A program made the translations under genes and the position numbers. Source: an uncultured Collinsella sp. (GTDB lineage Bacteria > Actinomycetota > Coriobacteriia > Coriobacteriales > Coriobacteriaceae). Taken from it: a DNA stretch of 10,059 nucleotides. The notes under the pieces are model-generated. The model saw nothing but the letters and a program-made list of their open reading frames with translations, was not told the DNA's origin and made no database searches. Shown here one piece after another: positions 3,101 to 4,585 of this stretch. Location of the stretch: assembly GCA_938036665.1 (NCBI GenBank), contig CALHWR010000229.1, positions 1-10,059 of the forward strand, given 5' to 3'. Each line of letters opens with the position of its first letter. Position 1 is the stretch's first letter.

Positions 3101-4585
3101 TCCATCGGCGAGCCCGGTACGCAGCTTACGATGCGTACCATTCACTCCGGCGGCGTCGCTGGCGTCGACGATATTACGCAGGGTCTGCCTACGGTCAGCC
3201 GTATGTTCGATATCGTCGGCAACGTCAACGAGAAGATCCTGGGTCGTGAGGCCGAGCTGGCTCCGTACTCCGGTCACCTCTCGATTAAGCCCGAGAAGTC
3301 CGAGTACGTGCTGACGCTCACCGACTCCGAGGATCACACCCGTGTCCTCGACGAGCGTCGCGTCCCCGCTTCGGTGCGCTTTATGCCCGAGATCGAGGAC
3401 GGCTGCGAGGTTCGCGCCGGCGACCAGATCACCAAGGGCTTCGTCAACTTCCGCAACCTGCGCAAGCTGACCGACATCGAGTCGACGATGCACACCTTCG
3501 TCGAGAGCGTTAAGGACGTCTACACCAGCCAGGGCGTCGACCTGAACGACAAGCACATCGAGGTGCTCGCACGTCAGATGCTGCGTCGCGTTCAGATCAC
3601 CAACCCCGGCGACTCCAAGTACCTGCTTGGTCAGTACGTCGACCGCTACGAGTTCGCCGACGAGGTCGAGCGCGTTGCCCGTCTGGGCGGTCAGGCTCCC
3701 GTGGCCGAGCCCGTCATCCTGGGTACGCTCAAGGTCGCGTCCAACATCGACTCCTGGCTGTCGAGCGCTTCGTTCATCCGTACCGCCGGCGTCCTTACCG
3801 AGGCTGCCATCGAGGGCAAGGTCGACCACCTGCTCGACCTTAAGTCCAACGTCATCGTCGGTAAGAAGATCCCGGCTGGTACCGGCCTCAAGCCGTACGC
3901 CAACGCCAAGCTGACGTATCGTACGGCCGACGGCTACGTGGACATCGACGGCCCGGCTTCGCCCAACGCCAAGTCGCTGCCCGAGTGGGCTCCGGTTGAG
4001 CTCAAGGACCTGGACGAGCAGCTCCCGCAGCAGCTCGACTGGGCCGGCTACGACGAGTTCGGTGGTGCTGACGGTTCGTTCACCCGCAACGGCCACACCA
4101 TCTCCGCCGAGAAGGCTCGCCTGTACCTGTTCGACGACCTGGGCGTGTCGCAGCGCTGGACCAACAAGTTCAGCGAGGTCGGCATCGAGACGGTCGGCGA
4201 CCTGGTCGGCAAGTCCGAGGAGGATCTGCTGCGCATCGATGGCATCGGTGCCAAGGCGATCGAGGAGCTCCGCGACGGCCTGGAGGCCCACGACCTGCTC
4301 TACATCCTCGAGAACAACGACGACGTTGCCGACGAGGAAGACCTCTCGCAGCTGCTGCAGATGGTCTTTAGCCCCGACGGTCCGGACGACATCCTGCTGG
4401 GCACCTCCGCCACGCCGACGCATCACGCCGACGCCGACGAGGAGCTCCTGGGCGCCCCGATCGACGACAAGAAGGCTCCCGCCAACGGTGCCATCAACGA
4501 GGACATGGCTTCCCTCGACGAGCTGCTCAACCAGCTCGTGGACACTGACGATGTCGAAGAGGCCAAGGACAACGACGAAGAGTAA
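107..4585 (+). CDS. rpoC: DNA-directed RNA polymerase subunit beta'
   Basis: Beta' forms the clamp and active site of RNA polymerase. Landmarks, numbered from GTG 107 (1492 residues): N-terminal zinc site C62, C64, C77, C80; a charged clamp insertion about 144-225, in the same place as the actinobacterial beta' insertion; sigma-binding clamp coiled coil and lid region about 325-390; catalytic NADFDGD at 533-539 with Mg-binding D535, D537 and D539; bridge helix region about 842-885; second zinc site C894, C965, C972, C975; trigger loop with M1009-H1013 and no proteobacterial SI3 insertion. The conserved core ends soon after the IPAGTG motif (1255-1260). About 225 further residues follow, holding an alpha-CTD-like domain (1339-1400) and an acidic tail. 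The protein is much longer than the roughly 1316 residues of M. tuberculosis beta'. GTG 107 is preferred because AAGGAG (92-97) lies 9 bases upstream; TTG 101 is in frame but only 3 bases from that site. A terminator follows the gene. Confidence 0.97.
4121..4306 (+). other. alpha-CTD-like helix-hairpin-helix domain in the RpoC C-terminal extension
   Basis: RpoC residues 1339-1400. Residues 1343-1392 align without gaps to E. coli RpoA residues 258-307, with about 18 of 50 identical by hand count. Shared segments include DDL (1343-1345), GDLV (1364-1367) and the LL before the hairpin (1374-1375). Known alpha-CTD DNA-contact positions are matched as R265=R1350, N268=N1353, G296=G1381, K298=K1383 and E302=E1387; C269 is Lys and S299 is Ala. 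A GIG hairpin (1379-1381) gives the helix-hairpin-helix signature. The family resemblance is seen directly. Binding to DNA or to a sigma factor is inference. A generic helix-hairpin-helix module, such as the acidic repeats of NusA, is the main alternative. Confidence 0.75.

Follow-up and report, generated by a model that had tools for sequence, protein, structure and literature searches.

Why does rpoC, the gene for the beta' subunit of RNA polymerase (RNAP), run on well past the conserved end of that subunit in Collinsella, and is the added part a C-terminal domain (CTD) of the kind carried by the alpha subunit, RpoA? The question is raised by a stretch of 10,059 nucleotides from an uncultured Collinsella sp. 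(GenBank assembly GCA_938036665.1, contig CALHWR010000229.1, positions 1 to 10,059 of the forward strand), hereafter the window, in which the reading frame at 101-4585 is open and encodes an RpoC of 1494 amino acids (aa). Sequence profiles and structure models confirm that residues 1343-1395 of this protein are an alpha-CTD-type domain. The protein is 99-100% identical to those of several named Collinsella aerofaciens loci. The general beta' model of NCBIfam, TIGR02386, matches residues 14-1266, which leaves 228 residues beyond the beta' core, and a second model, NF011498 (PRK14906.1; 1459 positions), covers residues 4-1493 at 2589.9 bits (curated cut-off 1437).

A sequence-only reading of this locus had aligned RpoC residues 1343-1392 with residues 258-307 of E. 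coli RpoA. The alignment is indeed gapless with 18/50 identities, but counted from the TTG at 101 the segment is residues 1345-1394 (nucleotides 4133-4282); the earlier numbers imply a count begun two codons later, and the nucleotide range proposed with them, 4121..4306, still encloses the domain. The counterparts of R265, N268, G296, K298 and E302 named at the time are all present in the window (R1352, N1355, G1383, K1385 and E1389). The RpoA CTD of the nearest genome is 22/50 identical to the beta' domain of the window and 25/50 identical to the alpha-CTD of E. coli.

Pfam's alpha-CTD family, PF03118, matches the whole window protein at 34.9 bits (E 1.2e-8), its last 211 residues at 38.5 bits and a 76-residue piece at 40.9 bits (E 1.7e-10; cut-off 23.8). 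The helix-hairpin-helix (HhH) family HHH_5 (PF14520) reaches 19.4-24.2 bits, below its cut-off of 27. Because of these E-values, and because PF03118 lies above Pfam's curated cut-off and HHH_5 below its own, the match is beyond chance; PF03118 is the only family above its cut-off in the window domain. Eight NCBIfam alpha models match around residues 1336-1406 (E 3.5e-8 to 0.0012), under their whole-protein cut-offs, and the best PDB sequence matches are alpha-CTDs (1z3e, E 4.6e-6). Profile-profile comparison also supports an alpha-CTD-type domain. Structural matches listed by Foldseek and VIA for two AlphaFold models are RNAP alpha chains, as judged from title, length and matched range, titles naming the entry and not always the chain; such a list does not rule out other folds. 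The domain is predicted with a pLDDT of 82-91 (blocks of residues 91-160, AlphaFold model m255191db614f). Proteins of the f43 and f32 types, taken up below, reach 39.9-49.8 bits with PF03118 (L232, L242, P0124, P0130). One observation goes against the assignment: in L225, one of four copies from the class of Collinsella whose Pfam scores were inspected singly, HHH_5 scores 34.1 bits, above its cut-off, versus 30.9 bits for PF03118. The profile, profile-profile and fold tests nevertheless uphold the earlier identification of the domain as alpha-CTD type and not generic HhH.

The gene and its extension are laid out as follows. Mean identities are those among 37 sequences of the order of Collinsella; residue counts, here and below, are those among 44 beta' copies from the class, 21 from the order (window and nearest genome included) and 23 from other orders.

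101 to 4585, plus strand: rpoC, RNA polymerase beta' subunit, 1494 aa, TTG start, coordinates with the stop codon.
101 to 3898, plus strand: conserved beta' core, residues 1-1266, from the TIGR02386 match.
3899 to 4126, plus strand: variable linker, residues 1267-1342 (residues 1267-1333 have a mean identity of 57%).
4127 to 4285, plus strand: alpha-CTD-like domain, residues 1343-1395, from PF03118, AlphaFold (AF2) and Foldseek/VIA (91% mean identity).
4154 to 4156, plus strand: R1352, equivalent to R265 of E. coli alpha; R in 44/44 copies.
4163 to 4165, plus strand: N1355, equivalent to N268; N in 29/44 copies, and in 21/21 within the order.
4247 to 4255, plus strand: G1383-A1384-K1385, equivalent to G296-K297-K298; G296 in 44/44, K298 in 40/44.
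4265 to 4267, plus strand: E1389, equivalent to E302; E in 44/44.
4286 to 4582, plus strand: acidic tail at the C-terminus, residues 1396-1494, with a net charge of -27 in the window.
4337 to 4381, plus strand: conserved motif within the tail, residues 1413-1427 (88% mean identity).

The linker measures 64-77 aa in 20 loci of the order and 64-154 residues across the class, and is mostly of low AlphaFold confidence. The tail is 78-96 aa long in the 20 order loci; in the 23 loci measured outside the order it has 0-5 aa.

Has the domain moved from RpoA, or been added to it? In G001, the nearest genome, PF03118 matches twice, once in RpoA (314-aa frame, 97.4 bits) and once in RpoC (1493-aa frame, 40.2 bits). 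Across the class, PF03118 exceeds its cut-off in 145/148 genomes, the best match, among those listed, lying in a frame of 309-420 aa, the size of RpoA. Since RpoA retains its CTD, the beta' copy is an addition and not a relocation, as the sequence-only reading had supposed. Two alpha-CTDs per enzyme is the usual view of RNA polymerase. In Collinsella and related bacteria, which are common in the human gut, the enzyme seems to bear three domains of the CTD type, divided between two kinds of subunit, and E. coli promoter rules and activator contacts may therefore not transfer to them.

How general is this architecture? A profile built from beta' copies (A2) finds the domain in beta' of 118 of the 148 class genomes surveyed, three of them with cut or broken frames. 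Every genome examined of Collinsella's order has it (91/91; f1 36, f3 29, f5 26), and so does every genome of twelve other families (27/27; f2, f6-f13, f15, f17 and f18), where one copy is cut by a contig end (G103) and two lie in broken or partial frames (G077, G093). The G077 frame (L226) is broken by one in-frame TAA, which may be a mutation, an assembly error or the mark of a pseudogene. An annotation or assembly artefact is ruled out by the presence of the copy in 118/148 genomes, and a degenerate leftover is ruled out for the order, where the identity of the domain (0.909) is above that of 24/30 fifty-residue segments of beta'.

The same profile search detected no beta' copy in families f4 (23 genomes) and f16 (6 genomes), 29 genomes together, and no RpoC match was found in the assemblies of G069, one of these 29, and of the single f14 genome; in draft genomes, absence may also reflect an assembly gap. 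Among 60 C-terminal loci fetched, 59 were readable: 44 were CTD-like, 14, all from f4 or f16, were zinc-type, and one was an ordinary second RpoC in G033. This last protein (L172, contig C24) lacks the extension, lies in a 1315-aa frame and is perhaps draft-genome contamination or a second rpoC. In f4 and f16, beta' ends in two tandem zinc-type modules of the pattern CxxxxxxGxxC...CxxH at the position of the CTD-like domain of their relatives. With full-length loci added, the modules were seen in 19/19 of the f4/f16 genomes read, out of 29 (L120-L124, L126, L127, L130-L132, L134, L136, L138-L141, L144, L149 and L189), and the module of L120 scores over the cut-offs of Pfam zf-TRM13_CCCH and DUF5763. 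In a tree of the RpoC core, the class forms one clade with the CTD state throughout and the zinc state nested within. In L128 and L228 (f11 and f18), the RpoC core groups with the zinc-type families (support 91), yet the domain tree places the CTD-like domain closer to alpha (PF03118 52.8 bits in L128); judging from these trees, this domain is perhaps a regain.

Our genome surveys covered the phylum of Collinsella, and the architecture recurs there outside the class. In family f43 (class of G188), PF03118 scores 38-58 bits in frames of 1438-1516 aa in 13/13 genomes, whereas the remaining 58 genomes of that class lack PF03118 in frames of similar length. Another class, that of G257, has it in 6/31 genomes (g167 3/3, g223 3/3), at 34-44 bits in frames of 1356-1416 aa. 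When f43- and g167/g223-type regions were searched against whole databases, 11 proteins came back at E<=0.01 in one search and 8 at E<=0.1 in the other, all of which combine PF03118 with Rpb1 domains. On the RpoC-core tree, the CTD label must change at least four times on starred branches, the zinc swap included; the tree was made by a quick method from 78 rows with support from the Shimodaira-Hasegawa-like approximate likelihood ratio test (SH-aLRT) only, and some starred branches of quick trees are false. Because carriers are nested among non-carriers and the label changes on this tree, the beta' architecture probably arose by repeated gain; losses rather than gains are possible in principle. 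The domain tree (76 rows, 68 columns) sets the Collinsella-class copies on one side of a branch (96/93) and gives a single beta' clade a p of 0.324 in the approximately unbiased (AU) test, and is too short to choose between one and several origins. We hold it as a tentative possibility that the beta' C-terminus is a recurrent graft site for nucleic-acid-binding modules, where the alpha-CTD type would have been gained at least three times in one phylum and swapped for zinc modules in part of the Collinsella class; promoter recognition by these polymerases would then involve a third upstream arm, rooted in beta', extending to DNA or activators from beside omega. The patchy distribution and the zinc swap raise the question of whether the omega/beta' C-terminal corner is a natural second entry for upstream DNA or activators, as engineered omega fusions suggest.

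What might the domain do? The beta' end presumably adjoins omega. In the reading that we favour, and regard as evenly poised, the module would be a third alpha-CTD-type arm: held on a flexible tether of ~64-154 residues rooted at the beta' end next to omega, it would touch upstream promoter DNA through its retained R265/K298/E302 face and/or dock activators, and at some promoters would thereby strengthen or regulate the recruitment of RNAP. To judge by charge alone, the acidic tail of the order copies probably tunes or masks the DNA contact, or could bind a basic partner. Omega binds the beta' C-terminal region, and when omega is fused to a DNA-binding protein the chimera can activate transcription from a site upstream (PMC7700224); dCas9-RpoZ activation peaks ~90 bases upstream (PMC6021436). 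A CTD module tethered at the omega/beta' corner could, by analogy, reach the same upstream DNA, or activators bound there. On this view the earlier placement of the arm, across the enzyme from alpha, lacks support and is doubtful.

The residues themselves bear on this third-arm proposal in both directions. We take N268, C269, G296, S299 and E302 to be DNA-contact residues of the alpha-CTD, and D259 and E261 to belong to the 261 determinant for sigma. In the complex formed at E. coli rrnB P1, R265 and K298 contact DNA and N294 enters the minor groove (PMC7822876). Among aligned positions 258-307, only R265, G274, G294, G296, E302 and L307 are invariant in the class copies: R265, G296 and E302 are thus kept in 44/44, with K298 in 40/44 and N268 in 29/44.

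Several results weigh against the proposal. The position of N294 is Gly in 44/44 copies, S299 is Ala in 43/44 (kept in 1/44), and C269 is Lys in 40/44 (kept in 0/44). E261 is Gly in 43/44 and Asp in 1/44, the D259 position being acidic in 44/44; of the sigma contact that the sequence-only reading had seen in the start of the 261 determinant, D259 therefore stands and E261 does not, which leaves that claim weak. The aligned block is acidic in the order, with a mean net charge of -6.5 in its 21 copies. The mean is -3.5 for other-order beta' copies and -0.9 for the alpha-CTDs of the class (31 sequences), and the E. coli block has a charge of 0. The alpha-CTDs of seven other members of the phylum average -2.9, and because the other-order copies lie near this value, marked acidity is a feature of the order only. 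In the f43 copies, R265 is replaced by Tyr and N268 by Ser (7/7 each), families f4 and f16 dispense with the module altogether, and no clear extra UP block was found at rRNA promoters (20 operons from 14 genomes, one cut to 367 bases), where promoter-like matches at the threshold used occurred in 8/20 operons.

The f43 copies (L232, L255-L260) keep Q-K-S at 297-299 in 7/7, and their role may differ from that of the Collinsella-class copies, as their residues suggest. The f32 copies keep R265 and N268 in 6/6. As f43 lacks R265 and f32 has both residues, the three groups need not work alike.

Two features of the rRNA promoter regions may be recorded separately. Paired TGTG-type repeats ~11 bases apart lie 5' of 16S rRNA genes in the Collinsella family (L270, L272, L273, L274 and L277), by eye slightly upstream of the likely rrn core promoter, and f5 genomes (L284-L287) have A-tracts upstream of their rrn promoters.

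A different role would be that of a protein-interaction module derived from the alpha-CTD that has given up DNA binding and docks activators, NusA-like factors or other regulators, which we consider rather unlikely but the strongest of the alternatives. The acidity of the order domain (mean -6.5), the loss of the minor-groove N294 in 44/44, the replacement of S299 and C269 and the f43 copies without R265 would all suit it, as would the conservation in the order, which spans the whole domain and not the DNA face alone (mean pairwise identity among the 37 sequences 0.909, against 0.572 for the linker, 0.773 for residues 1-1260 and 0.444 for the final portion of the tail). Yet R265, a DNA contact in the alpha-CTD, is invariant in 44/44 although the other-order copies share only 49% identity, K298 is kept in 40/44, and the f32 copies retain R265 and N268 in 6/6.

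Alternatively, domain and tail could belong to the body of the RNAP, where they would cover contacts made by a diverged omega or stand in for them, with a role in assembly or stability and not as an arm; we find this improbable. Against PF01192, omega reaches 18.6-33.9 bits in the genomes listed for the order, with one weaker match in G148 (E 0.245), versus 43.2-59.9 bits in 56/57 other class genomes, the exception, G109, being cut by a contig end. Omega has thus diverged markedly across the order, to which, within the class and among the loci read, the 78-96 aa tail is confined, and omega binds the beta' C-terminal region (PMC7700224). However, this divergence is one event in one clade, making the correlation weak and the divergence no more than a hint; omega is still matched in every one of the 148 class genomes, and the poorly conserved linker (57%), mostly of low AlphaFold confidence, suits a tether. 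Least credible by far is a generic HhH domain merely resembling the alpha-CTD, or a chance match, since, even though the second hairpin has the common GIGxK pattern and HHH_5 matches 32/33 copies at E<=0.1 and outscores PF03118 in L225, PF03118 matches 33/33 at E<=0.1 and, in the window domain, no other family exceeds its cut-off, so that, L225 excepted, its score, the profile-profile match and the structural lists, whose matches are alpha subunits, rule it out.

How does the beta' copy compare with known systems? With the alpha-CTD of RpoA (PF03118) it shares a profile match over the cut-off, the predicted fold, the equivalents, in the window, of R265, N268, G296, K298 and E302 and a flexible tether. 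It differs in being on RpoC, presumably as one copy per core enzyme since there is one beta' per core, in its acidity in the order, in the replacement of the N294, C269, S299 and E261 equivalents and in the -27 tail of the window. An older CDD title of NF011498 reportedly mentions a beta'/alpha domain fusion. The architecture is in any case already a named protein model there, with a whole-length match, as an annotation that is silent on function; being in NCBIfam and in precomputed Pfam lists, the class-type architecture is not unseen. E. coli omega (RpoZ) fusions such as lambda cI-omega and dCas9-RpoZ likewise place a DNA-binding module at the omega/beta' C-terminal corner and recruit RNAP from upstream (PMC7700224, PMC6021436), but they are engineered, on omega, and sequence-specific binders. 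The two non-identical alpha subunits of Francisella RNAP are a comparable natural variation of alpha, located in RpoA and not in beta' (PMC3294249).

No paper on an alpha-CTD in beta' was found among titles and abstract openings of mostly non-subscription literature. Word searches of the text available returned no Coriobacter, helix-hairpin-helix, C-terminal extension, alpha subunit or C-terminus in a 2024 survey of beta/beta' domains (PMC11515920) and none of the words sought in PMC5511352, and the portion examined of PMC4679880, on an alternate beta' in Beggiatoaceae, held nothing comparable. As far as the literature searched goes, the test of the alpha-CTD nature of the domain, its near-universality in the class outside f4/f16, its recurrence in f43 and g167/g223 and its exchange for zinc-type modules are new.

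Finally, the genes between rpoC and the ribosomal-protein genes deserve mention. A gene for a sigma factor of extracytoplasmic function (ECF) size lies 3' of rpoC at 4781-5305 (Sigma70_r2 57 bits, Sigma70_r4_2 51 bits) and is overlapped by a gene at 5256-6332 with a sub-threshold match to DUF4179 (24.3, cut-off 30.1); from their sequences, the two are perhaps a sigma/anti-sigma pair.
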